Positions 955 through 28,175 of a DNA stretch of 33,003 nucleotides are shown piece by piece (within the stretch, counting starts at the first letter, position 1; each line of letters opens with the position of its first letter). The DNA comes from Haloferula sp. (GTDB lineage Bacteria; Verrucomicrobiota; Verrucomicrobiia; Verrucomicrobiales; Akkermansiaceae): assembly GCA_007126655.1 (NCBI GenBank), contig SLAV01000309.1, positions 1 to 33,003 of the forward strand, in the 5' to 3' direction. The notes under the pieces were generated by a model. It saw nothing but the letters and a program-made list of their open reading frames with translations. It had not been told where the DNA came from and did no database searches. The translations under genes and the position numbers were made by a program.

Positions 955-2364
955 TCATTCGGCTCCGGTTGTGGCCCGGCCCGGATTCTTGATCTGCCAG
1001 TCACGTTCGATTTCCTCAAGCGAGCGCCCCTTGGTTTCCGGCACGAATCGCATCACCACCCAGACGAGCACCACGCAGAACGCGGCATAGATGAAGAATG
1101 GAAAGCCGTGATGGAACCGTTCGAGCAACCAGGGGTTCTCATCCATCATCGGGAACGTCTGGGAAACCACGAAGTTCGCGCTCCAGAGGAAGAACGTGGC
1201 GATCGCAAGCGCGCGGCCACGCAGTTTGGTGGGGAAGATTTCGGACAGGATCACCCAAGTGACCGGGCCGACGGACAGCGCGAAGCTGGCGATGTAGCCC
1301 AGCACAAAGAGCAACAGCCAACCGCCGATCGCCTGCGCCGACGAGGCGGCGCCGATCGCGACCAGTGAAATGCCCATGCCTGCGGCTCCGGCGATCATCA
1401 ATGGCCGCCGACCGATCCGGTCCACGGTGACGATGGCGATGACGGTGAAGACCAGGTTCACCGCCCCGACCACGACGGTCTGCAGCAGGGCGATGTCGGT
1501 GCCCGCGCCGGCGATCGAGCGGAAGATGTCCGGCGCGTAATACAGGAAGACGTTGATGCCGGTGACCTGCTGCAGCACGGCCAGCGCGATTCCAAGGATC
1601 AGCACGCCACGCAGGCCGGGGCGCAGCAGTTCCCGGAAATTCCCGCTTTCCTGGCGCAGGGTGGCCTCGATTTCGGCAATCTCGCGGTCGGCGTGAACCG
1701 CACCGTCGATCCTGGCGAGGATCATCCGGGCCTGCTTCGTGCGTCCTTTCCGGCAGAGGAATCGCGGGCTTTCCGGCACGAAAAACAAGGCCGCCAGCAG
1801 GATCAGGGCCGGCACCGCTTCCGAACCGAACATCCAGCGCCAACCGGTCGTCCGCATCCATGAGTCGTCACCGAGCCCGGCGATGTGGTAATTGACGAAA
1901 TAGACCACGAGCATGCCGAAGACGATGGCGAACTGATTGAGCGAGACCATGCGTCCGCGAAGCCGGGCGGGCGAGATTTCCGCGATGTACATCGGGCTGG
2001 TCATCGAGGCGATGCCGACGCCCAGGCCGCCGAGAATCCGGAAAATGACAAACTCCGTGAAGGTCCGCGGCAGTGCCGTGCCAAGGGCGGAGACCAGGAA
2101 GAGCGCGGCGGCGAGCAGCAGCGTGGTTCTGCGGCCCAGGCGGTCGTTCATCGGCCCCGCCAGGATCACGCCCGCCACACATCCGACCAGGGCGCAGCCC
2201 GCCGCCCACCCCTTCATCGTGGCATCAAGATCGAACCACTCGCGCAAGGGTTCGATGGCACCGCTGATCACGGCCGTGTCGTAGCCGAAAAGCAGCCCGC
2301 CGAGCGTGGCGACGCCGCATGCGAGCACCAGATAGGATTTCCCCGCTCCCGCCTTCGGATTCAT
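955..2364 (-). CDS. MFS sugar porter (XylE/GalP/AraE type)
   Basis: GGLLFGYDTAVISGA, DRLGRRTTLL, PESPRFL, PETKGRSLEEIE signatures; start overlaps the upstream gene stop (ATGA at 2361-2364). Confidence 0.92.
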   Translation of the reverse strand: MNPKAGAGKSYLVLACGVATLGGLLFGYDTAVISGAIEPLREWFDLDATMKGWAAGCALVGCVAGVILAGPMNDRLGRRTTLLLAAALFLVSALGTALPRTFTEFVIFRILGGLGVGIASMTSPMYIAEISPARLRGRMVSLNQFAIVFGMLVVYFVNYHIAGLGDDSWMRTTGWRWMFGSEAVPALILLAALFFVPESPRFLCRKGRTKQARMILARIDGAVHADREIAEIEATLRQESGNFRELLRPGLRGVLILGIALAVLQQVTGINVFLYYAPDIFRSIAGAGTDIALLQTVVVGAVNLVFTVIAIVTVDRIGRRPLMIAGAAGMGISLVAIGAASSAQAIGGWLLLFVLGYIASFALSVGPVTWVILSEIFPTKLRGRALAIATFFLWSANFVVSQTFPMMDENPWLLERFHHGFPFFIYAAFCVVLVWVVMRFVPETKGRSLEEIERDWQIKNPGRATTGAE

Positions 2365-3635
2365 CGGTTTGTTTCCTCTGAGTTGAATTCACGGATCGCG
2401 TCCACCATGGCGACGACGTTTTCCACCGGCGTGAGCGCCTGGATGTTGTGGATGGTGTTGAACACGAAGCCGCCGCCGGGTGAGAACACCTCGCAGCGCC
2501 GCCGCACTTCCGCGCGCACTTCCGCCGCTGTCCCGAATGGCAGGGTTTTCTGCGTGTTGACCCCGCCGCCCCAGAAGGTGATTTTTTCGCCGTGGCGTTC
2601 CTTGAGGATTTCCTCCGACATGCCGCGCGCGGAACACTGGACGGGGTTCAGGATGTCGAAGCCGGCCTCGACAAAATGCGGGATGAATTCCTCCACCGCG
2701 CCGCACGAGTGCTTGAAGGTTTTCCAGTCGGTATGCTCGTGGATCCAGTCGTTCATCTTCTTGTAATGCGGGAGCCACAGGTGGTCGAAGGTGTCGGTCG
2801 AGCAGAAGCTCGATTCCTGGGTGCCGAAGTCGGTTCCGCAGACGACCACCACATCGAGCACGTCGCCCACGGCGTCCTTGAGCAGGGCGAGATTTTGCAG
2901 CGCGATGTCACTCTGGCGCCGGAACACCTCATCGACGTATTCCTGGTTCACGGCCGTGGCCATGTACCATTCGGCAATGTCGCGGATGCCCTTGGGATGG
3001 GTGAGAAACGGCGCCGGGACCAGCGCAATGTCACCGAGGCAGGTTCCATTGAGGTGGGTGATCACCGCACGCTCGCTGCCGCGCAGCCGGTCGGCCTCCG
3101 CCTTCCAGTAGGCGAGGTCTTCCTCGCTCATGACTGAGAACTCCTCGAGGTTGTCGTCCGGATTCAGGTTGTCCTCGTCGATGGGTTCCTGGCGGATGAT
3201 GGCATCGAAGAAATAGCCCGATTTCGGCATGTGTCCGCTGGCTGGCGCGGAGGTGTCCCCCTTGGGATGAATGAATGTGCCTTGATCATTCTCGTAGGTC
3301 CGGAAGTGTTCGGAGACCAATAGTTCCTGGCCCCATGGGGCGCGCCACATTTTCCAGTTCTCGTTGGGAAAGCCGAAGATCGTGTAGCGCGGGAAAATGC
3401 TCACCACGTCGGCACCCATGGCATCCAGCAGATCGTCCTCGACCAGCCCCAACATCTGGTAGGGCTCACAGACTTTCACCGGGCGCTTTTCGAGACCGTA
3501 GTGATTCCTCAGGCCGGCGACCACGCTGCAGTGGATGCCGGTGATGAAGGAGCTGCCGAAATCGACCGGCACGCGGTCGGGCTGCTGGTGGCGGATTGCG
3601 GCGCGGACGCGCGCGCGGGATGTCATGGGGTCCAT
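2361..3635 (-). CDS. Uroporphyrinogen decarboxylase-superfamily protein (probable corrinoid methyltransferase)
   Basis: RVRAAIRHQQPDRVPVDFG N-terminus, KHSCGAVEEFIPHFVEAGFDILNPVQ, GGGFVFNTIHNIQALTPVENVVAMVDA C-terminus typical of UroD-like methyltransferases. Confidence 0.85.
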   Translation of the reverse strand: MDPMTSRARVRAAIRHQQPDRVPVDFGSSFITGIHCSVVAGLRNHYGLEKRPVKVCEPYQMLGLVEDDLLDAMGADVVSIFPRYTIFGFPNENWKMWRAPWGQELLVSEHFRTYENDQGTFIHPKGDTSAPASGHMPKSGYFFDAIIRQEPIDEDNLNPDDNLEEFSVMSEEDLAYWKAEADRLRGSERAVITHLNGTCLGDIALVPAPFLTHPKGIRDIAEWYMATAVNQEYVDEVFRRQSDIALQNLALLKDAVGDVLDVVVVCGTDFGTQESSFCSTDTFDHLWLPHYKKMNDWIHEHTDWKTFKHSCGAVEEFIPHFVEAGFDILNPVQCSARGMSEEILKERHGEKITFWGGGVNTQKTLPFGTAAEVRAEVRRRCEVFSPGGGFVFNTIHNIQALTPVENVVAMVDAIREFNSEETNR

Positions 3636-3688
3636 GGGTCGTCAGGGTTGTGGCGGGATGGCCGTTCCGGCATCCATTGGAATGCTAT

Positions 3689-3705
3689 CCCGCGGTTGCC
3701 GCGGG
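3689..3705. other. GC-rich hairpin in the divergent intergenic region
   Basis: CCCGCGG-TTG-CCGCGGG perfect 7-bp stem followed by TTCTTGTG on the + strand. Confidence 0.5.
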
Positions 3706-3797
3706 TTCTTGTGCTGCGGTGTGATTGTTTGGTGATTTCGTGCGATCCGGGGCCTTATGTCTTGTGCCGGCTTGGCCGGCGCGTTTGAAGTGGCGCG

Positions 3798-4697
3798 ATG
3801 AACTCGAAGAATCTGATGGATGAACTGGAATCGCGGCCGCTTTGTGGTGACGGCGCAATGGGCACCCTGCTGATGGAGCGGGGAATGAAAGGGGGCTCCT
3901 GCGGGATGGCCTGGAACACGGAGCGCCCGGACGATCTGATGGCAATTCACAAGGCTTACCACACGGCAGGATCGCGGCTCATCACCACCAATTCGTTCGG
4001 CGGATCGCGCTTCATGCTCGATGGCCACGGGCGCGGCGACGATGTGCGGGATCTCAACATGGCCGCCGCACGGGTGGCCCGGGCGGTGGCGGGCGACGAC
4101 GCCTGGGTTCTCGGTGATGTCGGTCCATGCGGGGATTTTCTCGAACCGGTCGGCGAACTGACCGAGGACGAGCTTCGGGATGCATTCCGCGATCAGATCG
4201 GAGCGTTGATCGAAGGCGGGGCGGACGCCGTGCTTGTGGAAACCATGAGCGATCCCGGGGAAATGGCCTGCGGGATTGAAGCCGCGCATTCCTGCGACCC
4301 GGACATCCCGATCATCGCCACATACGCTTTCCAGAAGACTCCGGGCGGTTTCCGAACCATGATGGGCACCAGCGTGGAAGAGGCCATCCGCCGGGCCTTG
4401 GACGCGGGCGCGAAAATCGTCGGAGCCAATTGCGGCAGCGCCCTCGACCTGGACGACTACGTCGCCTTGTGCGGGGAAATCGCGGCGGTCGCCGGTTCCG
4501 CGAAAGTCATTATCCAGCCGAACGCCGGAGCACCCGAGCAGATCGACGGCCGGACCGTTCATCCCGCGACTCCCGATCAGATGGCGGGCACCGCCGGGCG
4601 TCTGATGGACGCGGGCGCGCACATCATCGGCGGATGCTGCGGGACCACTCCGGAGCACATGGCCGCCATCGCGAACCGGGTGGCGGGCCGGGCCTGA
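3798..4697 (+). CDS. Homocysteine S-methyltransferase domain protein (BHMT/MetH-N-like)
   Basis: GDGAMGTLLMERG, TNSFGGSR, GANCGSAL and GGCCGTTPEHMAAI Zn/Hcy-binding Cys motifs. Confidence 0.93.
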   Translation: MNSKNLMDELESRPLCGDGAMGTLLMERGMKGGSCGMAWNTERPDDLMAIHKAYHTAGSRLITTNSFGGSRFMLDGHGRGDDVRDLNMAAARVARAVAGDDAWVLGDVGPCGDFLEPVGELTEDELRDAFRDQIGALIEGGADAVLVETMSDPGEMACGIEAAHSCDPDIPIIATYAFQKTPGGFRTMMGTSVEEAIRRALDAGAKIVGANCGSALDLDDYVALCGEIAAVAGSAKVIIQPNAGAPEQIDGRTVHPATPDQMAGTAGRLMDAGAHIIGGCCGTTPEHMAAIANRVAGRA

Positions 4698-4701
4698 GGC
4701 C

Positions 4702-5415
4702 TCAGGAGCCCGCGCGCTCGCGGAACTGCCCGGGCGTGACTCCCTTCACATCGCGGAATACGCGGGTGAAGTAGCTTTGGTCGCAGAAGCCGCAGCGGTC
4801 GGCAATGGAGGCGAGCGTGTCGTCGCTTTGCAGCAGCAGGTCGCAGGCGAGGTTCACGCGGCACTGGCGCAGCAGTTCGGTGAACGAGCGCCCGGTGCGC
4901 TGCTTGAGCACATGGGAGAAATGGCCGGGGGAAATCCCGGCGTGCCGCGCGGTTTCGTCCCGCGTGATCTCGCGGTGCAGGTTGTCCCGCATGAAATCCA
5001 GCGCCTTGCCGATCAGGAGCGGAGGCGTGAAGTTTTCCTGCCGCTCGATCATGGAAAACAAGTGCTCGAACGCATTGCGCAGCCATCCGGCGAGTTGCTC
5101 GTCATCTTCGATTGCGGCGAGTTCGGTGAGGATCCTGTAATTCGTGCCGAGCACATCGCTTTGCATCGCCCCGGCTTCGATCGCCGCCCGGGAAAGCATG
5201 ACCACCAGCTCCAGCAACAACCCCTTGAGCAGGTCGCCGCGGTCCTCGCCCGAGCTGTAGATGTGGACGAGCACGTGATTGATGATGCGCACCGCCTCGC
5301 CGCGATCGCCCCGCCGCATGGCGGCCAGGAGCATGGGTTCCTGATAGAGATAAAACTCGCGGATCCGGTCGTAGGGCCGGTGGTCCAGCAGATGCACGGC
5401 GGGGAAATCGTTCAT
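4702..5415 (-). CDS. AraC-family transcriptional regulator
   Basis: C-terminal double HTH: ARHAGISPGHFSHVLKQRTGRSFTELLRQCRVNLACDLLLQSDDTLASIADRCGFCDQSYFTRVFRDVKGVTPGQFR; start overlaps the RACE stop (ATGA 5412-5415). Confidence 0.93.
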   Translation of the reverse strand: MNDFPAVHLLDHRPYDRIREFYLYQEPMLLAAMRRGDRGEAVRIINHVLVHIYSSGEDRGDLLKGLLLELVVMLSRAAIEAGAMQSDVLGTNYRILTELAAIEDDEQLAGWLRNAFEHLFSMIERQENFTPPLLIGKALDFMRDNLHREITRDETARHAGISPGHFSHVLKQRTGRSFTELLRQCRVNLACDLLLQSDDTLASIADRCGFCDQSYFTRVFRDVKGVTPGQFRERAGS

Positions 5416-7046
5416 GGCAGCATCAGGTGTTCGACATAGTGATCTTCGAAATCCGCGATCAGGTTCAGTTCCACCACATCGGTGCGCTCCCGCAGGGATT
5501 CCATTTCGCCGAGCGTGCCCTGGTCGAGCAGTGCGAGCAGCGCCCCGGCGAGCGAGGTGTTGCCGACGACGCGGATTTGTCGTGGTTGGAAGCCGGGCAG
5601 AAGACCGCAGGCGATGGCGTGCGGCACATTCAGATGCATGCCGAATCCGCCGGCCAGATACACTCGGGAGATTTCCCCGGCCCGGATGCCGGCGATTTCG
5701 AGCAGCGTCTCGATTCCCGCGCCGATGGCGGCCTTGGCCTGGAGCAGCAGTGCCACGTCCACCTCGCTGATGAACAATGGGTGGTTTTTTCCGAGGCGCA
5801 GCGCCCGCGCCCCGTCCTCATCGACGAGCCGGCGGCTTTCCGGAACCCGCGACCAGGCGTCCGCCTCGAACCGCCCGGCGTGGCCTAACAGACCCACCGC
5901 CCGCGCGGTGGCGAGAAAGTCGATGTAGGCCGAGCCGCAAATGCCCGATGCGCGTGGCACGGGAACCTCCCCGATGGTCGTCACACGCGTTTCAAGGGAA
6001 CCGGAGGACAGGGAAATCCCGCTCACCGCACCCTCCCGCGCGCGGGTGCCACAAGCCAGCCCGGCTCCTTCGAAGGCCGGGCCGGCCGCCGTGGCGCAGG
6101 CGGTGAATTCGCCGCCGCGCTGGAGGATGATCTCGCCGTTGGTGCCGATGTCCACCAGCAGGCTCGGCGCGTCATCATAGATCATGCCGGTGGCCATTGC
6201 CCCGGCGGTGAGGTCCGCGCCGATGTATGCGGCGATCGATGGCAGGAGCCGCACCGGCGTTTCCGCGGGCAGCCCGTCCAGCGCGAACCCGAGGTCCGCC
6301 GCCGCGAGGGAGCGTCCTGCGAGAAAGGGCGCGGTGAATGGCGCGACGCCGAGCGGCGCCGGGTCCACACCCGCGAGCAGGTGCAGCATGGTGGTGTTGC
6401 CGGCGACGGTGCCTCCGGCGATGCGGTTCGGCCCGCGCCCGGCCCGCTCGCAGGCCTGCGCAAGCAGGGGTGCCAGGGTTTCCACCACCACGGCGGTTTG
6501 CATCGCGGCGACGGCTTCCGGGTTGCGCGCGGCGTCGATGCGGGTGAGCACGTTGTCGCCGAAGCGGATCTGCGCGTTGAACCCGCCGGCGCGGGAAAGG
6601 ATCTCGCCGCTGGCGAGATCAACCAGCATGACCACCACCGTGGTGGTGCCGATGTCCACCGCGAAGCCGGTGTCGCGGGTGCCATCCGGAGAAAACAACG
6701 GATCGTGCGCGCAGGGCACCGCGATTTCAAAGGTCTCGCCGATCTGTGGCCGGTGCTCGATGCGCGAACGGGTGGGGATCGAAATCGTGACCGGCCCGCC
6801 GGGCCGCGCGCGGCAGGCGCGCACGGTGGCGGGCGCGCGGACCGTCCGGTTGTCCACCGTCAACTCGCCTTCGCCGAGCCGAACCTCGCATCCCCGGCAA
6901 AGCCCGCGTTCGCCGCAGCGGGTGTTGAGCGGGGATCCGTGGGCGGCGAGGATTTTCGACAATGCGGTGTCCGCATCAGCCTGAGGGCGGATTTCCAGCA
7001 GCCCGCCCGCTTCCGATTCGATCCGGATGATGCGGTCGCGGCTCAC
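5412..7046 (-). CDS. RACE-type reductive activator of corrinoid proteins: 2Fe-2S ferredoxin domain + ASKHA domain (DUF4445)
   Basis: C-x5-C-x2-C cluster (NTRCGERGLCRGCEVRL), VDIGTTTVVVMLVDL, LVDIGTNGEIIL, AGGFGMHLN, C-terminal FEDHYVEHLMLP. GTG start at 7046 (VSRDRIIRIESEAGG) preferred over the longer ORF to 7142 because it forms a GTGA overlap with the upstream gene. Confidence 0.92.
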   Translation of the reverse strand: MSRDRIIRIESEAGGLLEIRPQADADTALSKILAAHGSPLNTRCGERGLCRGCEVRLGEGELTVDNRTVRAPATVRACRARPGGPVTISIPTRSRIEHRPQIGETFEIAVPCAHDPLFSPDGTRDTGFAVDIGTTTVVVMLVDLASGEILSRAGGFNAQIRFGDNVLTRIDAARNPEAVAAMQTAVVVETLAPLLAQACERAGRGPNRIAGGTVAGNTTMLHLLAGVDPAPLGVAPFTAPFLAGRSLAAADLGFALDGLPAETPVRLLPSIAAYIGADLTAGAMATGMIYDDAPSLLVDIGTNGEIILQRGGEFTACATAAGPAFEGAGLACGTRAREGAVSGISLSSGSLETRVTTIGEVPVPRASGICGSAYIDFLATARAVGLLGHAGRFEADAWSRVPESRRLVDEDGARALRLGKNHPLFISEVDVALLLQAKAAIGAGIETLLEIAGIRAGEISRVYLAGGFGMHLNVPHAIACGLLPGFQPRQIRVVGNTSLAGALLALLDQGTLGEMESLRERTDVVELNLIADFEDHYVEHLMLP

Positions 7047-7792
7047 GGCTGGGTCTGGCGGAGGATGGATTCGTCGGGTGAGTGCGCGGATGCCGATCCG
7101 GGCTCCACGACCAGGAAACGCGTCGGGTCCCAGTTTCCCCACAACAGGTCCCGCAGCAAGGCGGGGTCGCCGTGGATGCGCTCGAATTTCCAGCCGAGGG
7201 ACTTGGCGCAGCGTTCCGCGTAGGCGGCCTCCTTTTCGCCATCGGGCGTGCCGATGTCGATGTAGGTCGCGGTGTCGTGCATCGCCCAGGTCTGGTTTTC
7301 ACACTCGATGAGAAACTCGACGTCTTCCGCGTCGAATTGTTTCGCATACTCCTCGCGGATGTGGGCCAGCCGGTCCGGACCCGGCACCCGCCGAGCGCGG
7401 TTCCAGCCGGGTGTGTAATACATGCACCCCGGACAGGCGCGCTGATGCTCCGCATAGCGCTCCTTGCCGCCCATGAACAAGGTGATGCAATCGTGTGCGC
7501 GCGGCAGCACGTAGGGATGCCGGCCCGCCCGCAGCCCCGCTGTGCCCAGCCCGCATAGGCCATAGGCCAGCGCCACCGCGTCGATGTCGTCGCGGCCATC
7601 GAGCGAATCCAGCTCGCCCTGGAGCTTCGCCCGCAGCTCGTCGGGGCGGTCGTGCAGGGCGATTTCATACCACCGCGTCTCCACGATGTGCCCGGCACCC
7701 TCGGCCAGCATCGCGATTTCGCGTTCGAAGACGGAACAGGCAAGCAGGATGATTCTCGGAGGTGTCATCGGGACCGCTTCATTCAGATTCAT
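7043..7792 (-). CDS. DUF1638-family protein
   Basis: RIILLACSVFEREI..., ALAYGLCGLGTAGLRAG, LPRAHDCITLFMGGKERYAEH, PGCMYYTPGWNRARR resemble the DUF1638 family; alternative start at 7768. Confidence 0.82.
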   Translation of the reverse strand: MNLNEAVPMTPPRIILLACSVFEREIAMLAEGAGHIVETRWYEIALHDRPDELRAKLQGELDSLDGRDDIDAVALAYGLCGLGTAGLRAGRHPYVLPRAHDCITLFMGGKERYAEHQRACPGCMYYTPGWNRARRVPGPDRLAHIREEYAKQFDAEDVEFLIECENQTWAMHDTATYIDIGTPDGEKEAAYAERCAKSLGWKFERIHGDPALLRDLLWGNWDPTRFLVVEPGSASAHSPDESILRQTQP

Positions 7793-7950
7793 TCCCCAGC
7801 CTCACCCAAGCAAAAACGCGGCGGACGCCAACGACGACGTCGCCGCGTGTCCCGACCGGCCCGCGATTTCCGCCAATGACGGGCCATGCACGATGAGAAA
7901 CCACCGGGGATTGCCCGCGGATGATCCGGAATACAGGTTGGTGACGGCAC

Positions 7951-8979
7951 TCAAACCGCGAGAAACTCCTCCACCTTGGCCATGATCGATTGTTCCCTGC
8001 CGGGGACGCTCAGCACATCGCATTCGCTGCCGAGAATGAACGGGTGACCGGCTTCACGCATGCGCTTCTGCAATTCCTCGGAAAGCTTTCTCACACGGCC
8101 GGGTGGAACCAGCTCGTCGGAATAAAATTGTTTCGTCGGCAGGTTGCCGTAGAGCACGGTGGATTTGGAAACCAGGGCCGCATCCTCCCACAAGCGGCGC
8201 GAACTGCCCAGGCTGAGCACCGCCGGGTCCAGACTCGCGAAACGTTGGACCATGCCTTCGGTGAGTTCGCCGCAATCGTGAAAAATCAAATCGGCATCGG
8301 AGGTCGCCAATTGGTTGCGAATCGCGCGGTTCAGGTCGATCACGAAGCGGTCGAAAACCTCGTGGCTTTCCTTCAGCTGGTTCGGAGAGAAATACACTTG
8401 GTTGGCCGCCGGTTCGCACACGATGATCGCCCTGGCACCGGCCTGGATTTGCGCATCGAGATAGCAGCCGACAGTTGCGGCGGCCATCTCCAGCAGTGTT
8501 TCCAGCAGGGCCACCTCGTCGTCGTCCTCCGCGGTGGCTCCGGAACCGGCCAAAAACACCGGCGTAATGGGATCGCTGATCAGCTTGGTCATCAACGAAA
8601 ACGGCCCGATGCCCATGCCCACCGGCAAAAGGTCGGTCTCCTCGGATACATGCCGGATGGCCTCACACACGGCATTCATGCGGCGGGTAAGCCGCACCTC
8701 GCCAGAGTCGGCCGGGATTTCGTCGAAGTGAAACGCATCAATATCCTCAGGGGCAATGCCGCGGGCGGACAACATGGCCTCCTTCTCCAGCTTCAAGTCC
8801 ATCAGCGGAATCGCCATCGGACAGCGGAAGCGGCGAGCCGCCTCGGCGACCACCGATCCGAGTCTGCGCCCGTCGTTTGGAATCGTCTTGTGGTCGGCGT
8901 GTTCGTGCAGAACCAAATGCGTGCCAATGGGCATTCTCAATCCGGATGCGGCGAGATCCAGGTAGTATTGGCGATTCAT
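7951..8979 (-). CDS. UroD/MtaA-type methyltransferase (methylcorrinoid-related)
   Basis: HxC...C putative Zn site (IFHDCGELT ... ILGSECDVLSVPG); start MNRQYYLDLAASGLRM at 8979, 13 nt downstream of the corrinoid-protein stop. Confidence 0.82.
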   Translation of the reverse strand: MNRQYYLDLAASGLRMPIGTHLVLHEHADHKTIPNDGRRLGSVVAEAARRFRCPMAIPLMDLKLEKEAMLSARGIAPEDIDAFHFDEIPADSGEVRLTRRMNAVCEAIRHVSEETDLLPVGMGIGPFSLMTKLISDPITPVFLAGSGATAEDDDEVALLETLLEMAAATVGCYLDAQIQAGARAIIVCEPAANQVYFSPNQLKESHEVFDRFVIDLNRAIRNQLATSDADLIFHDCGELTEGMVQRFASLDPAVLSLGSSRRLWEDAALVSKSTVLYGNLPTKQFYSDELVPPGRVRKLSEELQKRMREAGHPFILGSECDVLSVPGREQSIMAKVEEFLAV

Positions 8980-8992
8980 CCTGATGTATGGG

Positions 8993-9643
8993 TCACGACC
9001 TGAGCAGGGACATCGCCGCATCCACCGCGCTTCCCGCATCCGCGGCATAGCCGTCGGCACCGATTTCATTCGCGTATTCCGTGGTGATGGGGGCGCCGCC
9101 GATCATGATTTTCGCCGCCAGTCCGGCCTCGCGGATCGCCTTCACGGTTTCGCGCATCGCCGGCATGGTGGTGGTGAGCAGGGCGGAGAGACCGACGAGT
9201 TTCGCGTTGTTCTCGCGGATTGCCTCGACGAATTTCGCAGGCGGCACGTTCACTCCAAGGTCGATCACGTCGATGTTCGCGCCCTTCCACATCATCGCGA
9301 CGAGGTTTTTCCCGATGTCGTGGAGGTCGCCCTCGACGGTGCCGATCACCGCGTTGAATTCGGGCTTCACGCCGGCCTCGACCAGCATCGGTTCAAGCAA
9401 CTTGAGCGCCTCCTTCATCGCGCGTGCGGCGATCAGCATTTCCGGCACGAAAATCTCGTTGTTCTTGAATTTCTCGCCAACCACCGCCATCGCCGAGACC
9501 AATCGGGATTCAACGATGAATTGCGCGCTCTCCCCCGCGTCGAGGCATTCCTGTACGAGCGCGGGAATCTCCTTGCGTTTCCCGGCAATGATGGCCTGGC
9601 TCAATGGATGGGTATCGCTCATGTCGGAACATAGATTATCCAT
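8993..9643 (-). CDS. Stand-alone corrinoid (B12-binding) methyltransferase protein, MtbC/MtaC-like
   Basis: GTVEGDLHDIGKNLVAMM (DxHxxG cobalamin-binding motif), LSALLTTTMPAM, IMIGGAPITTEYANEIGADGYAADAGSAV; alternative start at 9622. Confidence 0.95.
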   Translation of the reverse strand: MDNLCSDMSDTHPLSQAIIAGKRKEIPALVQECLDAGESAQFIVESRLVSAMAVVGEKFKNNEIFVPEMLIAARAMKEALKLLEPMLVEAGVKPEFNAVIGTVEGDLHDIGKNLVAMMWKGANIDVIDLGVNVPPAKFVEAIRENNAKLVGLSALLTTTMPAMRETVKAIREAGLAAKIMIGGAPITTEYANEIGADGYAADAGSAVDAAMSLLRS

Positions 9644-9771: not shown

Positions 9772-9829
9772 AGGTTGCCGGAAAGGCCGGTCTGTGGCAT
9801 ACTCGCTACGTCAACATCTTGAACACACC

Positions 9830-10657
9830 ATGGGAAAAATTGGAATCGGACTGAATCTGGAAGCCGTGCGCACGTCGCACAAGAACTTTGAATGGGGCGT
9901 CGAATTCGCGGCCGACCTTGGCTACGAATACATCGAGCCGATGGTGCACTGGGGCCGCGAGCTGCTCAGCGAGGCGCGTTATTTCCACAGCGTCTCGATG
10001 CTCGACGATCCCTACCGCATCCGCGACTGCGTCGAGAAACACGGTCTCAAACTTTCCGCCTTCTCATCGCACAGCCAGGCGTCGAAGCCCGAGATCTGTG
10101 TCGAATACCTCAAGCAGGCCGCGCGCTTCGCGAAGGAGGCCGGCTCGCCGGTCATCATCACCCACGAGGGACACAAGCAGCCATGGACGACGATGGAGGA
10201 GGACTTCGTGCTGATCAAATATTCACTCACCGAGGCGCTCAAGGTCGCTGAACGCCGCGGCATCAAGATCGGCTTCGAGATGCACCAGACGTATTCGCTC
10301 AAGCCCGAACTCTACGACAAATGCCTCAACCTCGTCGATTCACCGAACCTCGGAGCCAATTACGACACCGGCAACGCCCACCTCGGCGGTCAGGATGCCG
10401 TCGAGTGGTTCGACCGGGTGAAGCACAAGGTAATCCACGTCCACGCCAAGGACATTTCGATCGAGCAGTCCGACGCGGAGCGCGGCAAGGTGATGGGCAC
10501 GGCCGTCGGCTGTGCCTGCGGCGACGGGGTGGTGGACTACCCCGCTATTTTCGAACTCTGCCGCGATTTGCCCCAGGACATCGTATTCAGCGTCGAATGT
10601 GAAACACTTGAACAGGCCGAACGTAGTGTAAAATACCTCAAGAGCATCCGCGACTGA
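9830..10657 (+). CDS. Sugar phosphate isomerase/epimerase (AP-endonuclease-2-like TIM barrel)
   Basis: MGKIGIGLNLEAVRT... EFAADLGYEYIEPMV, GFEMHQTYSL, NYDTGNAHLGGQDAVEWFDRVKHKVIHVHAKDIS. Confidence 0.88.
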   Translation: MGKIGIGLNLEAVRTSHKNFEWGVEFAADLGYEYIEPMVHWGRELLSEARYFHSVSMLDDPYRIRDCVEKHGLKLSAFSSHSQASKPEICVEYLKQAARFAKEAGSPVIITHEGHKQPWTTMEEDFVLIKYSLTEALKVAERRGIKIGFEMHQTYSLKPELYDKCLNLVDSPNLGANYDTGNAHLGGQDAVEWFDRVKHKVIHVHAKDISIEQSDAERGKVMGTAVGCACGDGVVDYPAIFELCRDLPQDIVFSVECETLEQAERSVKYLKSIRD

Positions 10658-10691
10658 GCGCCCGCTTGAAATCCCAACCTGAACACCCGCC

Positions 10692-11993
10692 ATGAACCGC
10701 CGCCAATTTCTCACCGGAAGCCTCGCCGCCGGAGCTTCGCTGTCCATCCTGCCATCCCGTGCCCGGGCCGGCACGTCGGCCAACTCCACCCTCCGGCTCG
10801 CCCAGATCGGTTGCGGCCGCATGGGTCGGGGCGACATGGGCAACGTGATGGCCGGCGGCTGGAAGAATGAGTTCAACGCCCGCATCGTCGCCTGCTGCGA
10901 CGTCGATGCGAACCGCGCCGCGTCCGCCGTCGAAATGGCGCGCGGTTTCTACAACGAGCGAGGCGAGGACAACGTCGAAATCTCCACGCACGGCGACTAC
11001 CGCGAGATCCTCGAACGCGACGACATCGACGGCATCCTCATCTCCACCCCGGAGAACTGGCACGGCATCATGGGCGTGGCAGCCGCCAATGCCGGCAAGC
11101 ACATGTACGTGCAGAAGCCGATCACCTACTCGATCCCCGAGGGCCGCGCCTTGGTCAAGGCGGTGCGTGACAACAACGTCGTGCTGCAGACCGGCTCGCA
11201 GCAGCGCTCCAGCATCCGTTTCCGCCAAGTCTGCACGATCATCCGCAACGAATGGCTGGGCAAACTGAGGAAAATCGAGGTCGAGGTGCCCACCGACCGT
11301 GGCCGGGCCGATGGCGAGCCGGGATCGCCTCCCGAACATCTCGATTTCGACATGTGGCTCGGCCCGTGCCCGGAAGTCCCTTATATCGAAGCGCGAGTCC
11401 ATCCAGAGAGCGGATTCGGCCGCCCCGGCTGGCTGCAGGTCGAGCAATACTGCCTCGGCATGATCACCGGCTGGGGATCCCACATGTACGACATCGCCCA
11501 ATGGGGCATCGGTGACGACCATTTCCCCGTCGAGTTCCAAGCCACCGGCGAATTCCCGGACCGTGGGCTGTTCGACGTCCACGTCGGGTACGAGGGCGAG
11601 GCCCTGTATGACAACGGCGTGGTCATGACCTCGAAAAACGGCAACCCCGGCGTACGCTTCATCACCGAGGACGGCTGGGCATATTGCGCCCGCGGCCGCA
11701 TGGAATGCAGCGACCCCGAGCTGCTCCGCCGCCAGCCCGGCGACGGCGAGATCAAGCTCTACACCAGCACCAACCATATGGAGGACTTCCTGGGTTCCGT
11801 CCGCGACGGCAGCGATCCGATCTGCCCGGTCGAAATCGGTCACCGCTCGAACGCCATCTGTGTGCTCCACCACTTATCGATGAGACTCGATGGTCGCAAG
11901 CTCAAGTGGGACAGCGCCAAGGAAACCATCACCAACGACGATGAAGCACACGCCCGCCTCACCATACCGATGCGCGAGCCTTATGTCCTGTGA
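10692..11993 (+). CDS. Gfo/Idh/MocA-family oxidoreductase with Tat-like signal
   Basis: MNRRQFLTGSLAAGASLSILPSRARA signal; IGCGRMGRGDMGNV, ILISTPENWHGIMGVAAANAGKHMYVQKPITYSIPEGRAL. Confidence 0.93.
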   Translation: MNRRQFLTGSLAAGASLSILPSRARAGTSANSTLRLAQIGCGRMGRGDMGNVMAGGWKNEFNARIVACCDVDANRAASAVEMARGFYNERGEDNVEISTHGDYREILERDDIDGILISTPENWHGIMGVAAANAGKHMYVQKPITYSIPEGRALVKAVRDNNVVLQTGSQQRSSIRFRQVCTIIRNEWLGKLRKIEVEVPTDRGRADGEPGSPPEHLDFDMWLGPCPEVPYIEARVHPESGFGRPGWLQVEQYCLGMITGWGSHMYDIAQWGIGDDHFPVEFQATGEFPDRGLFDVHVGYEGEALYDNGVVMTSKNGNPGVRFITEDGWAYCARGRMECSDPELLRRQPGDGEIKLYTSTNHMEDFLGSVRDGSDPICPVEIGHRSNAICVLHHLSMRLDGRKLKWDSAKETITNDDEAHARLTIPMREPYVL

Positions 11994-12146: not shown

Positions 12147-13541
12147 ATGTCAGACGCGTATCTCACACAGTCGATCTCCCAGCAGCAGACTCTCGCGCCG
12201 CACATGCGCAAGAGCCTGGAGATACTGCAAGCTGGCACGCAGGAACTGTCGCAGTTGATCAGTCAATCCCTCGAAACCAATCCGGTGCTGGAGGATGTGA
12301 CGGATTTCGAATCGCTGGACGCCGATTCGCCCGACGACCCGCTGGACGCGCTCAACGAGACCGACGATGATTGGCGTGAGCAGTCGATCCTGGAAAACCG
12401 CAACAACATGTGGACGCAAAACGACGAGGAGCGTCGCCAGCGTATGTTCGAATGCCTCGTGGCACCGGTGACATTGCAATCCCACTTGCAGAGGCAGATC
12501 GATGAGGCGCTGGTGCCGCCCGATGTGCGCGAAGCCGCCGGGTTGATCCTGGGGAACCTCGATTCGCGCGGCTTCCTCGAACAGAAACCCGAATCCCTGG
12601 CCGGCCAGAGCGGTCTTGAACTTGGCGCGATCGAGCGCGCCCTCGCGCTGGTGCGCTCGTTCGACCCACCCGGTGTGGGTGCCGCGGATCTCTCCGACTG
12701 CTTGTTGCTTCAGTTGGAGCGCGAGCCCGGGGGCGCGGGCAGCGTCGAATACCGCATTGTGCGCGACCACCTTGAGGAACTCGCACGCAAGCGCCACCCG
12801 CAGATCGCCCGCGCCATGGGCGTGAGTGTGGACCGTGTGGCACGCGCCGCCGAGCACATCGGCCGACTCAATCCGAACCCCGGCAGCGACTTCGACGCCA
12901 CAGGCAACCCGCACGTCGTTCCCGACGTGGTCATCGAGCGTGGAGAAGACGGCCGCCTTGCCGCCACCCTCACGGGCGAGCATCTGCCACAGCTGCGCAT
13001 CAATGATTTCTACAAGGACATGACGGGCGCGCGTGGCATCGACCCCAAGGCCCGGCAGTTCTTGCGCGAGCAGATCCGCGAGGGCCGCGGGCTGATGCGG
13101 GCGCTCGCCCTGCGCCAGGAGACAATCCTCGCCATCGCGCACAAGATCATCGAACATCAGGAGGGCTTTTTCCGGAAGGGGCGGCGGCATCTTCGGCCGA
13201 TGACGATGCACGAGATCGCCGCGGAACTCGACCTGCATCCCACCACCGTCTCGCGCGCCGTCGCCGGCAAATATGTCCTCACTCCGCGGGGACTCATGGA
13301 AATGCGCGCGTTTTTCGCCACCGGTTACCACACCGAAACCGGCGACCAGGTTTCGAACGCCGGCGTCCGCGAGGCGATTCAGCAACTCGTCGCAAAGGAA
13401 AACCCGGCCAAGCCGCTTTCCGACGAAGCCATCACCAAGGCCCTCGCCAGCCAAGGCATCAAGGTCGCCCGCCGCACCGTGGCGAAATACCGCGAGCAGC
13501 TCCACATCCTGCCCTCGCACCTGCGCAAGGCGTATTCATGA
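12147..13541 (+). CDS. rpoN: RNA polymerase sigma-54 factor
   Basis: N-terminal Q-rich/LEILQAGTQELSQLISQSLETNPVLED region and C-terminal RpoN box ARRTVAKYREQLHILPSHLRK. Confidence 0.98.
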   Translation: MSDAYLTQSISQQQTLAPHMRKSLEILQAGTQELSQLISQSLETNPVLEDVTDFESLDADSPDDPLDALNETDDDWREQSILENRNNMWTQNDEERRQRMFECLVAPVTLQSHLQRQIDEALVPPDVREAAGLILGNLDSRGFLEQKPESLAGQSGLELGAIERALALVRSFDPPGVGAADLSDCLLLQLEREPGGAGSVEYRIVRDHLEELARKRHPQIARAMGVSVDRVARAAEHIGRLNPNPGSDFDATGNPHVVPDVVIERGEDGRLAATLTGEHLPQLRINDFYKDMTGARGIDPKARQFLREQIREGRGLMRALALRQETILAIAHKIIEHQEGFFRKGRRHLRPMTMHEIAAELDLHPTTVSRAVAGKYVLTPRGLMEMRAFFATGYHTETGDQVSNAGVREAIQQLVAKENPAKPLSDEAITKALASQGIKVARRTVAKYREQLHILPSHLRKAYS

Positions 13542-18180: not shown

Positions 18181-19440
18181 TCAAAGCACGCGGCGCGTTC
18201 CACCGCCACAAAGTTTCTCCAATGCGTGCCGGAGCAATCTGGCTCCAGCGTGGATGTCGTCCCACGAACTCCATTCCGCCGGGGAATGCGAGCGCCCCGA
18301 CCGCGACGCCACGAACACCATCGCCACCGGGGCCACCGACGCCACGATCTGCGCGTCGTGCGCCGCACCCGAGGGCATCCGCCGGTGCGCGAATCCCAGC
18401 GATTCCGCACCCTCCGCCAGCAGCCGCGTCAACCGGTCGTCGCAGCGAACCGGAGCCACCCGGCTCTCCTCCTGGAACTCGAACATCAACCCGCGCCGCC
18501 GCGCGATGGCCGAAAGCGCCCTGCGGAAAGCCAGCGCCAGCTCGTCCATCACCGCCTCGTCCGTGTCCCGCACGTCCAGTGAGAAAATCGCCGCGCCCGG
18601 AACGGTATTCGGCGAACCGGGATACAGCCCGATTTTCCCCACTGTCGCCCGCGAGTGCTCCCCACCCACCTCGTCAATGATCCTCGGCACCTCGTGCGCG
18701 AAATCCGCCACCCCCATGAAGGCGTCGCGCCGCATCTGCATCGGCGTCGTTCCAGCGTGGTTCGCCTCCCCTTTCATCGTCACCGCCCACTTGAACAGGC
18801 CGGTGATCGCGTCCACCACGCCCAGCGACTCGCCTGCCGCGTCCAACACCGGCCCCTGCTCGATATGCAGCTCCAGATACGCCGCCACCGTCGCCGGATC
18901 CCGCCGTGCCTCCAGTGCCTCCCACGGGTCCATCCCGCAAGCCTTCATCGCGTCCGCCAATTTCACCCCGTCGAGGTCCGCCGCCGTATCCAGCGTCTCC
19001 GGTGTCACCATCCCGGCGAACGCCTGCGAGCCGAACAACCCGCCAAACCGCCCCTCTTCGTCGGAAAAAGCAATCAACTCGATGCCCCGCTCCGGGATGA
19101 AACCCTCGTCACGCAGGGCCCGCATTGCCTCCAGCCCGGACAAAACACCCAATGCCCCGTCAAGCGTTCCCGCGCAGGGTACCGTATCGATGTGGGACCC
19201 CACCAGCACCACCGGCAGCGTCGGATCCGCCCCCTGCCAGCGTCCGATCACATTCCCCGCCCCGTCCAGCCGGGCTTCCAGCCCCGCCTCCCTCATCCGC
19301 TCCAGCAACCACCTTTTACCCTCCATTTCCGCCTCCGTGAACGCCATCCGGTAGAGTCCGCCGTCCGACTCATCACGTCCGATCGCCGAGAGCTCGCGCA
19401 GATGACCTTGCAGCCGTTCGAGATTCACAATCGCTTCCAT
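18181..19440 (-). CDS. Zn-dependent hydantoinase/carbamoylase-family amidase (AllC/AmaB-like, M20 fold)
   Basis: LVGSHIDTVPCAGTLDGALGVLSGLEA, AFSDEEGRFGGLFGSQAFAG, ELHIEQGPVLD, HAGTTPMQMRRDA, GAAHDAQIVA. Confidence 0.93.
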   Translation of the reverse strand: MEAIVNLERLQGHLRELSAIGRDESDGGLYRMAFTEAEMEGKRWLLERMREAGLEARLDGAGNVIGRWQGADPTLPVVLVGSHIDTVPCAGTLDGALGVLSGLEAMRALRDEGFIPERGIELIAFSDEEGRFGGLFGSQAFAGMVTPETLDTAADLDGVKLADAMKACGMDPWEALEARRDPATVAAYLELHIEQGPVLDAAGESLGVVDAITGLFKWAVTMKGEANHAGTTPMQMRRDAFMGVADFAHEVPRIIDEVGGEHSRATVGKIGLYPGSPNTVPGAAIFSLDVRDTDEAVMDELALAFRRALSAIARRRGLMFEFQEESRVAPVRCDDRLTRLLAEGAESLGFAHRRMPSGAAHDAQIVASVAPVAMVFVASRSGRSHSPAEWSSWDDIHAGARLLRHALEKLCGGGTRRVL

Positions 19441-19530
19441 GCCACGATCATGCACACCCCCACAACCGATGCAAACCCGGGAAACCAAGGCGCATCCGAA
19501 CGAAGCCGCAATGTGTTTCCCCGCCCTGAT

Positions 19531-20256
19531 TCAATACACGCCGCCGTCAATTTTCAACGATGCACCCGTAATGTATGCCGCCTCCCCGCTTGCCAGAAAA
19601 ACCACTGCCGCGGCGACCTCTTCCGGGCGACCGAACCGACGCATCGGCACGCGCTCCAGCGCCGCGCTCCTTGCCTCCCCGTCCATCGCCGCAAGCATCC
19701 CGGTCTCGATGTAACCCGGCAGCACCACATTCACCGTTATCCCGGCCTGCGCGGTCTCCTTGGCCAGCGAACGAGTCAGCATCACCACCCCGGCCTTTGC
19801 CGCCGCATAATTCGACTGGCCGACCGCCGGCTGCAACGCGCTCATCGACGCGATGTTGATGATCCGCCCGTGGCCCTGCCGCGTCATCTGCGAAACCACC
19901 GTCCTGCAGCCGTAAAAGACCGAGTCCAGATTCGTCTTGATCACCTCGTGCCAGACTTCTTCAGGCATCGTCGCCAGCAAGTGATCTTCATGGGCGCCGG
20001 CGTTGTTCACCAGCACATCGATCCTGCCGCAGTCATCCAGAATGGTCCGCGCCGCCGCCTGCCAATCGGAGCCACGCGTCACATCGAGTTCCAGCAAACC
20101 GCAACGCCCGACATGATCCACCGCCACCGATTCCGCTTCAGATCGGTTGGTTCGCACACCCAGCCAAACCCGGTCGTCGGGATGACTCTCCAAAAACCGC
20201 CTCGCCATCGCGACACCCAGCCCGCCGTTACCACCCGTGATGAAGATACTGCGCAT
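19531..20256 (-). CDS. SDR-family oxidoreductase (FabG-like)
   Basis: FITGGNGGLGVAMARRF, VNNAGAHEDH, SNYAAAKAGVVMLTRSLAKE, C-terminal ASGEAAYITGASLKIDGGVY. Confidence 0.95.
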   Translation of the reverse strand: MRSIFITGGNGGLGVAMARRFLESHPDDRVWLGVRTNRSEAESVAVDHVGRCGLLELDVTRGSDWQAAARTILDDCGRIDVLVNNAGAHEDHLLATMPEEVWHEVIKTNLDSVFYGCRTVVSQMTRQGHGRIINIASMSALQPAVGQSNYAAAKAGVVMLTRSLAKETAQAGITVNVVLPGYIETGMLAAMDGEARSAALERVPMRRFGRPEEVAAAVVFLASGEAAYITGASLKIDGGVY

Positions 20257-20505
20257 CACGCATACTTGCAACCCACCCCCACCTGGTCAAGTAGCGCCTC
20301 TCGCCCCCACTCCGAGCCGATCCACAAGACGGATCGTAACCACGCGCCCACAACTCCATCCTCCCCTCCCTGCTCCATGCCAGCCTCCCCCAGACACCCA
20401 CAACAGCCCGGCCCGTTTCTCCAGGCGGCGCGGGAACACACACCGCAACTGAAACCGAGCCTCCCTGCCACCCGATCGCGTCTCCAAGCTCCAGGCTTCC
20501 GGCTC

Positions 20506-21117
20506 TCACGCCGATTTCCGCAACAGCGCCACCATCACGCCCTGGATCACCAGTTCGCGGGCGGGAATCAGGTCGGGATAATTCGCGTTCTCCGCATGGA
20601 GATAGGGCTTGCCGCGCTCGACCACGTAGCGTTTCAGCGTCGTCTCGCCATCGATCAACGCCGCCACAATGTCGTTCTTGCGCGGCTCGCGGTGCTCCAG
20701 AATCACCGTGTCGCCGTCGCAGATGTGGGCGTCGATCATCGAATCGCCCCGAACCTTCAGCGCGAAAGTTTCCGAACGCCGTGCCAGGCCGAGGCTTGTG
20801 ATATCGATCGACACGCAGCCCTCTCGCTCCGGCTCCACGTCCTGCGCCATGCCCGCCGCGATGTTCCCGTAAACCGGAATGTCCACGATCTCCGCGCGGT
20901 CCAACAACTCGGGAAACACCACCGCGCGGGCCTTGCCCGGAAGGCGCTGGATCGCCCCCTTGCGCTCCAGCGCGCGCAGGTGGCTCATCGCCGCCGTCTG
21001 GCTGGCGAATCCGAAATAGTGCTGGATCTCACGGGTCGAGGGCATCACCCCGGTCTTGCGCTGGGCCATGTGCAGATAGTCGAGGATTTCCTGTTGGCGT
21101 TCGGTTAATGCGGTCAT
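20506..21117 (-). CDS. lexA: SOS repressor LexA
   Basis: MTALTERQQEILDYLHMAQ... wHTH, FPELLDRAEIVDIPVYGNIAAG cleavage region, LKVRGDSMIDAHICDGD, protease Ser/Lys context VAALIDGETTLKRY. Confidence 0.97.
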   Translation of the reverse strand: MTALTERQQEILDYLHMAQRKTGVMPSTREIQHYFGFASQTAAMSHLRALERKGAIQRLPGKARAVVFPELLDRAEIVDIPVYGNIAAGMAQDVEPEREGCVSIDITSLGLARRSETFALKVRGDSMIDAHICDGDTVILEHREPRKNDIVAALIDGETTLKRYVVERGKPYLHAENANYPDLIPARELVIQGVMVALLRKSA

Positions 21118-22299: not shown

Positions 22300-22490
22300 G
22301 CCGCGATCTATGCGCCCGGCGGCGCAAGACCATCAACCCGAATGTTCGGAAAAAACCGCCGCCGTATCGGTCCATCGTCCACCACCACGCCGGTCCCGAA
22401 TCCATGTCTCCGGCGGCCAAACCGCAAAATCGGTGGCCAAACCCGCGTTGTTTCCCTACAGAATCCCCCACCCGTCATCCTCCATCATTC

Positions 22491-27133: not shown

Positions 27134-28138
27134 ATGAAATACCTCCCGCTTGGCGATTCCAACCTTTCCTCATCCGTCATCGGCTTCGGCGCATGGGCCA
27201 TCGGCGGCGGTGCCGTCTGGGGCGGCACCACCGACGACGACGAATCCATCCGCACCATTCAAACCGCCCTCGACGCCGGCATCAACCTGCTCGACACCGC
27301 ACCCGCATATGGCTGGGGCCACAGCGAGCGCCTCATCGCAAGGGCCATCGACGGCCGCCGCGACGACGTCCTCCTCGCCACCAAATGCGGCCTCTGGTGG
27401 GACGACGACCGCGGCTCCTACTTCACCGAATTCAACGGCAAAAGCATCCACCGCTCGCTCCGCCCCGACACCATCGCCATCGAAGTCGAGCGCTCGCTCA
27501 AAGACCTCGCCACCGACCGCATCGATCTCTATCAGGTTCACTGGCCCGCCGTCGATCCCGAGAAAACCCCCGTCGCCGACACCATGGCCGCCCTCCTCAA
27601 ACTCAAGGACGAAGGGAAAATCCGCGCCATCGGTGTCTGCAACCTCTCGCCCGAAGAGCTGGAGGAATATCTCTCCCACGGCACCATCGCCACCCATCAG
27701 TTCCGTTACTCCATGCTCCATCGCGAGCCGGAAAAGGAAATGCTTCCCCTCTGCCAAAAACACAACCTCGCCACACTCACCTACATGTCGCTTGAGCAAG
27801 GCCTGCTCACCGGCAGGATCGGCATGGACCACGTCTTCCAGGAAGGCGAGTTCCGCACCAGCGCCGACTGGTTTCCATGGCTCCTCCCGCAAAACCGCCG
27901 CCGCATCCTCGATCTGTTGGATGGTTGGAAAAACCTCTGCGAAACCCACCACTGCACCCTCGCCCAACTCGTCCTCGCCTGGACGCTCGCCCAGCCCGGC
28001 ATCACCCACGTCCTCGCCGGTGCCCGCAAGCACCACCACATCCGCGAGACCGCCGCCGCCGCCGGCATCGAGCTTTCCAAGGAAGACCTCACCCGCATCA
28101 CCACCGACCTCACCACCCTCGGCGAGCCCGCCCCGTAG
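27134..28138 (+). CDS. Aldo/keto reductase
   Basis: MKYLPLGDSNLSSSVIGFGAWAIGG, NLLDTAPAYGWGHSERLIARAI, LATKCGL, RIDLYQVHWP, LAGARKHHHIRETA. Confidence 0.96.
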   Translation: MKYLPLGDSNLSSSVIGFGAWAIGGGAVWGGTTDDDESIRTIQTALDAGINLLDTAPAYGWGHSERLIARAIDGRRDDVLLATKCGLWWDDDRGSYFTEFNGKSIHRSLRPDTIAIEVERSLKDLATDRIDLYQVHWPAVDPEKTPVADTMAALLKLKDEGKIRAIGVCNLSPEELEEYLSHGTIATHQFRYSMLHREPEKEMLPLCQKHNLATLTYMSLEQGLLTGRIGMDHVFQEGEFRTSADWFPWLLPQNRRRILDLLDGWKNLCETHHCTLAQLVLAWTLAQPGITHVLAGARKHHHIRETAAAAGIELSKEDLTRITTDLTTLGEPAP

Positions 28139-28175
28139 GCGTGGTCGTGAGACCACGGCCACCCGCCAATCGACG
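28131..28175. repeat. 45-bp palindromic repeat, copy A
   Basis: CCCCGTAGGCGTGGTCGTGAGACCACGGCCACCCGCCAATCGACG; core dyad GTGGTC-GTGA-GACCAC; 43/45 identical to 30719-30763. Confidence 0.9.

Follow-up and report, generated by a model that had tools for sequence, protein, structure and literature searches.

Corrinoid-dependent methyl transfer has been described in several systems. The split methionine synthase and MtgBCDE systems of Phaeobacter and Ruegeria, which are aerobic hosts, have a standalone corrinoid protein and a separate homocysteine methyltransferase, together with RACE/RamA and DUF1638 (PMC5764234, PMC12478193), and there is a genetic precedent in Phaeobacter that DUF1638 and RamA are needed with the split methionine synthase (PMC5764234). 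The Type 1 mlp gene clusters of obligately anaerobic hosts contain several UroD-superfamily methyltransferases, a corrinoid protein and RACE (PMC10418091). They are recognised by at least two Mlps, including Mlp2 and Mlp3, with more than 25% identity to CoM methyltransferases, and by parts that all point one way, uninterrupted by a divergent gene. His-Cys-Cys and substituted zinc sites are the signatures of S-methyl and O-methyl specificity, respectively (PMC10418091). Further systems with UroD-superfamily enzymes are the Odm/Vdm/Mtv/MtoABCD systems, the chloromethane system Cdm, and MtaABC, the methanol:coenzyme M methyltransferase. Here, we analysed a stretch of 33,003 nucleotides (the window) from a freshwater Verrucomicrobium. 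It holds a locus that we read as a modular corrinoid methyl-transfer system, which would carry methyl groups from an O-methyl sugar or cyclitol through a corrinoid protein to homocysteine; we put the probability of this reading at about one half. Somewhat more tentative is the wider proposal that a UroD-type family, with up to nine members per genome, serves O-methyl sugar or cyclitol demethylation in oxidase-bearing Verrucomicrobiota, with one shared corrinoid protein and with homocysteine, not folate, as the acceptor.

All genes named in a first-pass annotation were found in the window (Table 1), and its parts list, strands and spacings were borne out. The gap between the corrinoid protein and UroD-2 genes is 13 nt, and that between UroD-2 and DUF1638, which had been put at about 160 nt, is 182 nt, or 158 nt with a DUF1638 start at 7792. 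Overlaps of 4 nt are found between DUF1638 and RACE, RACE and AraC, and UroD-1 and the MFS porter (ATGA). The homocysteine methyltransferase gene is convergent with AraC and lies between UroD-1 and the remaining parts. No cobalamin riboswitch or any other Rfam RNA was found in the window or in L014-L021.

Table 1 Features of the corrinoid methyl-transfer locus in the window.
Feature	Position	Strand	Domain or match
MFS sugar porter (XylE/SP family)	955..2364	-	TIGR00879, score over the cut-off; PRK10077 XylE as best match
UroD-1, member of the UroD superfamily, probably the substrate-specific donor enzyme (MT-I type)	2361..3635	-	PF01208
Homocysteine S-methyltransferase, probable methyl acceptor enzyme	3798..4697	+	PF02574, 211 bits
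AraC-type regulator	4702..5415	-	HTH_18
RACE, reductive activator of corrinoid proteins, ATP-dependent, with Fer2 and RACo domains	5412..7046	-	PF14574, PF17651, weak PF00111
DUF1638 protein, probably assists in reactivating the corrinoid	7043..7768	-	PF07796
UroD-2, zinc methyltransferase resembling MtaA, probably specific for thiols or S-methyl groups	7951..8979	-	PF01208
Standalone corrinoid protein (MtbC/MtgC-like methyl carrier)	8993..9643	-	PF02607 + PF02310

Co-occurrence of the parts was surveyed in 118 related genomes. The corrinoid protein is present in 21 of them, DUF1638 in 20, the UroD-1 family and the homocysteine methyltransferase in 18 each, and UroD-2 in 11, and the parts co-occur with Fisher p-values of about 1e-9 to 1e-21, which ignore phylogeny. 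All 18 UroD-1 genomes also have a standalone corrinoid protein and DUF1638, and 16 of the 18 have the homocysteine methyltransferase; G032 and G083 have no close homocysteine methyltransferase, and G083 is only 82% complete. Every UroD-2 genome has UroD-1 (11/11), and every DUF1638 genome has a standalone corrinoid protein (20/20). Pairwise distances of the parts correlate with an r of 0.78-0.92, except for DUF1638 (0.29). Furthermore, the genes recur as clusters, with 27 loci in Verrucomicrobiota, Lentisphaerota and one planctomycete. The gene order is corrinoid protein-UroD-2-MtaB-UroD-1 in L031 and corrinoid protein-UroD-2-UroD-1 in L046, UroD-1 sharing the operon in both loci, UroD-1-MFS-DUF1638-RACE-AraC in L107, and RACE-DUF1638-CobW-MtaA-like-UroD-1-corrinoid protein in L104; the DUF1638-RACE-AraC set is repeated in L032 and L107. 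Chance or misannotation was rejected because the parts occur together across genomes and their clusters are found again in relatives. These clusters support the earlier reading of the locus as a conserved gene neighbourhood for corrinoid-dependent methyl transfer, and the neighbourhood survey that had been suggested, of the corrinoid protein, DUF1638 and homocysteine methyltransferase, showed conservation with near-perfect co-occurrence. The isomerase and Gfo/Idh/MocA genes (9794-11993), neighbours on which the first-pass annotation had drawn for its substrate guess, are not conserved beside the system in relatives and were rejected as parts.

The DLHDIG cobalt-ligand motif of the corrinoid protein lines up with 1y80, and the three zinc cysteines of T. 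maritima MetH (1q7m) are aligned in the homocysteine methyltransferase, whose gene immediately follows corrinoid protein-UroD-2 in L038, L039, L040 and L044. DUF1638 is a probable helper in corrinoid reactivation. The lack of an MttB-like partner, first noticed in the window, extends to the whole genome, in which there is no PF06253; MtaB (PF12176) is likewise absent from the genome and has left no remnant in the window. The folate-type methyltransferase domain PF00809 was found in the genome only inside MetH (C387), two further matches (C183, C135) being read as dihydropteroate synthases. With MetH as the only folate methyltransferase found in the genome, and with neither MttB nor MtaB, the methyl acceptor is most likely homocysteine. 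The homocysteine methyltransferase is likely the methyl exit, a feature also of the split methionine synthases already known, to which it ties the locus. Two points speak against this exit: methionine synthesis by the locus is redundant with MetH, and demand for homocysteine would limit flux through the system.

An alternative, which we consider unlikely, is that the locus chiefly serves as a split methionine synthase, B12-dependent and of the Phaeobacter/Ruegeria type, fed by methyl-folate or glycine betaine, and that the UroD genes are incidental. The corrinoid protein, homocysteine methyltransferase, RACE and DUF1638 are all as in P. inhibens and R. pomeroyi, and genome G023 keeps the cluster with no detectable MetH. 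However, the genome studied here has neither a separate pterin-binding protein nor MttB/MtgB, and all 18 UroD-1 genomes have the corrinoid protein, with operons common to both. MetH is also present, so a primary methionine synthase role is not required.

UroD-1 retains the H-x-C of the zinc site, while the third zinc cysteine is swapped for an HN motif. Its sequence had no match among PDB chains, hence fold comparison was used; the structure model is weak (pLDDT 72), with MtaA (4ay8) as the best PDB match. There are 2-9 copies of UroD-1 per genome. The substrate-specific donor enzyme is probably this protein, which is a better candidate than UroD-2. Of 23 UroD-1-family cases tested, 7 have an XylE-type MFS porter directly adjacent and in the same orientation, as do the window and L039. 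Neighbours of UroD-1 paralogs include the XylE-type porter, GH95, GH97, GH120, a combination of MR_MLE, SDR and sodium symporter, and a desaturase-Rieske(MocE-like)-reductase fusion; two UroD-1 loci, L110 and L113, have unrelated neighbours and no sugar genes. An O-methyl sugar or cyclitol is favoured as the substrate because UroD-1 genes adjoin sugar porters and, in relatives, GH95 fucosidases, sugar-acid dehydratases and MocDE-like oxygenases. Such a substrate had been guessed in the first-pass annotation, and the sugar-type neighbours of UroD-1 relatives give the guess new support, the substrate being read from neighbours.

The known UroD-superfamily MT-I enzymes use methoxyaromatics (PMC13222342), and the corrinoid protein and RACE match those O-demethylase systems. 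The donor could then be a methoxyaromatic (lignin-type) compound, with an Odm/Vdm/Mtv-like O-demethylase and an unusual exit, which we regard as rather improbable: the porter is of the XylE/sugar-porter type, the UroD-1 neighbours are sugar genes, with no aromatic-ring genes found among those inspected, and there is no folate MT-II.

Two UroD methyltransferases had been proposed for the locus; both are present, but their roles are not equivalent. In UroD-2, residues H234, C236 and C320, which form the His-Cys-Cys zinc signature, are invariant in 27/27 sequences. Its sequence gave only weak HemE matches among PDB chains, hence the fold was compared; the AlphaFold model (pLDDT 92.8) best matches 4ay7/4ay8 (MtaA). 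Against MtaA/CmuA models both UroD proteins score 22-44 bits, with cut-offs of 235-600, and in the fold match both have 16-17% identity to 4ay7/4ay8. Because of its invariant signature and its fold, which is most like MtaA, UroD-2 probably acts as a methyltransferase on thiols or S-methyl groups, and it is probably not the O-demethylase. It is quite doubtful that UroD-2 is itself the donor enzyme. Its site is that of S/Se-methyltransferases, its fold is MtaA-like, and two UroD genes occur with a corrinoid protein and RACE and with no folate methyltransferase nearby. Yet 7 of the 18 genomes with the remaining parts lack UroD-2, UroD-1 has no Cys site, no sulfur or selenium genes were identified beside UroD-2, and the hosts carry oxidases (haem-copper oxidase subunit I in 18/18 carrier genomes) and are not obligate anaerobes. 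Methanol is a very improbable substrate: MtaB is in the cluster at 7/27 loci, with the zinc ligands of 2i2x, which we take to be E164, C220 and C269, kept, but it is missing here and is found in only 4 of the 118 relatives.

In the preferred reading, demethylation of an O-methyl sugar or cyclitol, the sugar porter, predicted to be co-transcribed with UroD-1, would import the methylated compound. UroD-1 would transfer the methyl group to the Co(I) corrinoid protein, whose cobalt would be held as Co(I) by RACE, aided by DUF1638. The homocysteine methyltransferase would then pass the methyl group to homocysteine, yielding methionine, and the demethylated sugar would enter catabolism. UroD-2 may have an accessory role as an MtaA-like zinc enzyme, exchanging methyl groups between a thiol and the corrinoid protein, and in relatives it may act beside MtaB (methanol). 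The analysis shows which genes are present, that they co-occur and form conserved clusters, and which catalytic residues and fold their products have; every reaction, the way in which methyl groups move and the identity of the substrate are inferred.

Algal and microbial polysaccharides often contain methylated sugars, which block ordinary sugar catabolism. A literature search found no paper on corrinoid demethylation of sugars, and such a route seems previously undescribed. If correct, our reading would place methyl-sugar unmasking by a corrinoid route alongside oxygenase routes, add a new substrate class for corrinoid methyltransferases, with the methyl cap fed to methionine, and show corrinoid methyltransferases with homocysteine in oxidase-bearing bacteria. 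The orphan DUF1638 gains a tight genetic context. Since the interchangeable parts are few (UroD-1 paralogs, MtaB, UroD-2), the system is directly testable.

Compared with known systems, the locus shares its standalone corrinoid protein, separate homocysteine methyltransferase, RACE, DUF1638 and aerobic type of host with the split methionine synthase/MtgBCDE systems. Unlike them, it has no pterin-binding MtgD and the genome no MttB-type MtgB; UroD-type proteins are found instead (in relatives also MtaB), and MetH is present. The Odm/Vdm/Mtv/MtoABCD and Cdm systems resemble it in the corrinoid protein, RACE and, at the superfamily level only, the UroD-type MT-I candidate, but the locus has a sugar context, not an aromatic one, no folate MT-II, and a homocysteine methyltransferase and DUF1638. 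The fold and zinc signature of UroD-2 recall MtaABC, and in sister loci MtaB adjoins the corrinoid protein and UroD-2, whereas this genome lacks MtaB and the cluster includes a homocysteine methyltransferase; to our knowledge, coenzyme M is not expected in these bacteria. With Type 1 mlp clusters the locus has in common several UroD-superfamily genes, the corrinoid protein, RACE and the lack of a folate methyltransferase nearby. The His-Cys-Cys zinc site of the Mlps is present in UroD-2 but not in UroD-1. The locus differs from these clusters in having a homocysteine methyltransferase, whose gene lies divergently between the UroD genes, in DUF1638 and the sugar context, and in its oxidase-bearing carriers, and both UroD proteins are far below the MtaA/CmuA cut-offs, as judged by the MtaA/CmuA models and 4ay7/4ay8. 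The locus falls outside the definitions of both the split methionine synthase/MtgBCDE systems and the mlp clusters, which are its closest relatives.

The eight genes of the locus have the positions, strands and spacings given by the first-pass annotation. Pfam and NCBIfam profiles, applied to the window, upheld the identities of DUF1638, AraC and the two PF01208 proteins, UroD-1 and UroD-2. They describe the corrinoid protein as PF02607 plus PF02310, the homocysteine methyltransferase as PF02574, the sugar porter as XylE-like, and RACE, the ATP-dependent corrinoid reductive activator, as the RACo middle and C-terminal domains. The locus is a real, conserved system and a variant of the corrinoid methyl-transfer modules. 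Judged from sequence, corrinoid methyl transfer is well supported as its mechanism class.

Conservation of the neighbourhood, on which the initial reading depended, was borne out by a scan of genome contigs, in which 20 of 27 UroD-2 loci also carry the corrinoid protein. Judging by record titles, these loci belong to Verrucomicrobiota or Lentisphaerota, with the exception of one planctomycete. The homocysteine methyltransferase is found within 12 of the 27, and in four it directly follows the corrinoid protein and UroD-2. In seven, the cluster includes the methanol enzyme MtaB, with its zinc ligands retained as in M. barkeri MtaB. Relatives of UroD-1 share an operon with the corrinoid protein and UroD-2 in loci L046 and L031, the latter with MtaB between UroD-2 and the UroD-1 relative. 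In locus L107, a single strand encodes UroD-1, the sugar porter, DUF1638, RACE and AraC; L104 combines RACE, DUF1638 and CobW with an MtaA-like protein, UroD-1 and the corrinoid protein. Protein distances are correlated for most parts, weakly for DUF1638. From the shared operons and correlated distances, the UroD-1/MFS and corrinoid genes are parts of one system.

Of 118 related genomes, 21 encode the standalone corrinoid protein, 20 DUF1638, 18 a member of the UroD-1 family (2 to 9 matches per carrier genome), 18 a close homocysteine methyltransferase and 11 UroD-2. Every one of the 18 genomes with UroD-1 also carries the corrinoid protein and DUF1638, and UroD-1 is in turn found in each of the 11 with UroD-2. 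Fisher p-values for co-occurrence range from 5e-9 to 1e-21, which overstates significance because the genomes were treated as independent. The distribution of DUF1638 tracks that of the standalone corrinoid protein rather than that of MetH. Five loci (L051-L054 and L056; Lentisphaerota and a planctomycete) have UroD-2 relatives of about 52-54% identity, with the zinc site intact and no corrinoid protein nearby. In five loci a DUF6580 membrane protein, possibly a vitamin transporter component, is encoded immediately upstream of the corrinoid gene; the window has no such gene at the corresponding position.

UroD-1 and UroD-2 have a common fold, and BLAST similarity between them is not significant. 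In UroD-2, H234, C236 and C320 are invariant (27 sequences) and match the HxC...C of M. mazei MtaA (4ay7). Its AlphaFold model (pLDDT 92.8) best matches 4ay7/4ay8, then HemE and zinc-containing MetE. Within this superfamily, His-Cys-Cys is the mark of S-methyltransferases, whereas in O-methyltransferases one Cys or both are substituted (Kountz and Balskus, PMC10418091). UroD-1, whose model is weaker (pLDDT 72), mostly retains the first His and Cys, and an almost invariant HN occupies the third zinc-Cys position. Since seven genomes without UroD-2 keep the other parts, UroD-2 would serve either as an accessory exit for the methyl group or as an entry point for S-methyl groups; exit to a thiol is slightly preferred, at odds near even.

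On the substrate side, a XylE-type sugar porter directly adjoins 7 of 23 inspected UroD-1-family genes on the same strand, usually spaced by 3 nt or a 4-nt overlap; the window and L039 add two such pairs. Glycoside hydrolases near UroD-1 include GH95, the family of alpha-L-fucosidases (a Pfam match in L101, which the L111 and L112 proteins resemble), GH97 (L114) and GH120 (L111). Another host UroD, on contig C317, and its L116 relative neighbour an SDR, an enolase-superfamily sugar-acid dehydratase and a sodium:solute symporter. A desaturase-Rieske-reductase fusion lies near UroD genes in L017/L038, L103, and, as relatives of the L103/L017 protein, L100, L105 and L111. Its ferredoxin domain is MocE-like, scoring under that model's cut-off, and the protein may be an oxygen-dependent O-demethylase working in parallel to the corrinoid route. 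MocDEF probably carries out the demethylation of rhizopine. This compound is an O-methyl inositol amine whose catabolism involves the mocDEF genes (PMC10107442). Taken together, the porter, hydrolase, sugar-acid and MocE-like neighbours favour O-methylated sugars or cyclitols, with moderate confidence because several UroD-1 loci lack sugar-type neighbours. We found no description of corrinoid demethylation of sugars among the open-access papers searched.

The host genome (4.1 Mb, 95% complete), of which the window is one contig, has a complete MetH split over contigs C387 and C127 and no separate MetH-like pterin domain. Each of its two remaining PF00809 proteins looks like a dihydropteroate synthase (C135 by eye from sequence, C183 by profile score), and no folate methyltransferase besides MetH was found. 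The absence of MttB, noted earlier for the window, extends to the whole genome, which also lacks MtaB. Two further PF01208 genes lie on C3, probably HemE, and C317 (464 aa, UroD-1-type). The homocysteine methyltransferase aligns with the three zinc Cys of MetH retained, and occurs in 17 of 21 corrinoid-protein genomes, often adjacent. Because MetH is the host's sole folate methyltransferase, homocysteine is the likeliest acceptor. Genome G023, which is 96% complete, carries the cluster and MtaB (L015 on C11, L066 on C60) but no detectable MetH; its homocysteine methyltransferase and corrinoid protein may therefore act together as its B12-dependent methionine synthase. Haem-copper oxidases in 18 of 18 carrier genomes indicate that the carriers are probably aerobic or facultative.

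Coordinates of features in the window and in related or host loci
Feature	Location	Remark
UroD-1	window 2361-3635 (-)	beside MFS porter
UroD-2	window 7951-8979 (-)	beside corrinoid protein
RpoN	window 12147-13541	
Long putative ORF	window 18655-21108	817 aa, no Pfam match
Glucose-6-phosphate dehydrogenase	window 22404-24023	
Long putative ORF	window 27150-30122	990 aa, no Pfam match
Short MetE-like protein	L063:3077-4120 (G000:C269, host)	347 aa, PF01717 88 bits; resembles core MetE without N-terminal domain
Single-chain fusion	L103:4159-6543; L017:1305-3596	fatty-acid desaturase, MocE-like Rieske, NqrF-like reductase
DUF6580	L017:8204-8752; L018:5697-6536; L020:11273-11938; L021:4667-5245; L023:5361-5912	
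PurU-like formyl-folate hydrolase	L031:8336-9172	ACT and formyl transferase domains; between homocysteine methyltransferase and corrinoid protein

Two known systems are near neighbours of this locus. It does not fit the type 1 mlp clusters in gene order, Mlp similarity or host lifestyle; as for the metal site, UroD-2 has His-Cys-Cys and UroD-1 does not. In Phaeobacter, RACE, DUF1638, a corrinoid protein and a homocysteine methyltransferase form a split methionine synthase, with its pterin and betaine modules making up Ruegeria MtgBCDE (PMC5764234, PMC12478193). All four of the former parts are present here, but the pterin and MttB (MtgB-type donor family) modules are missing, and UroD-1 and UroD-2, with MtaB in relatives, would occupy the donor side in their place.
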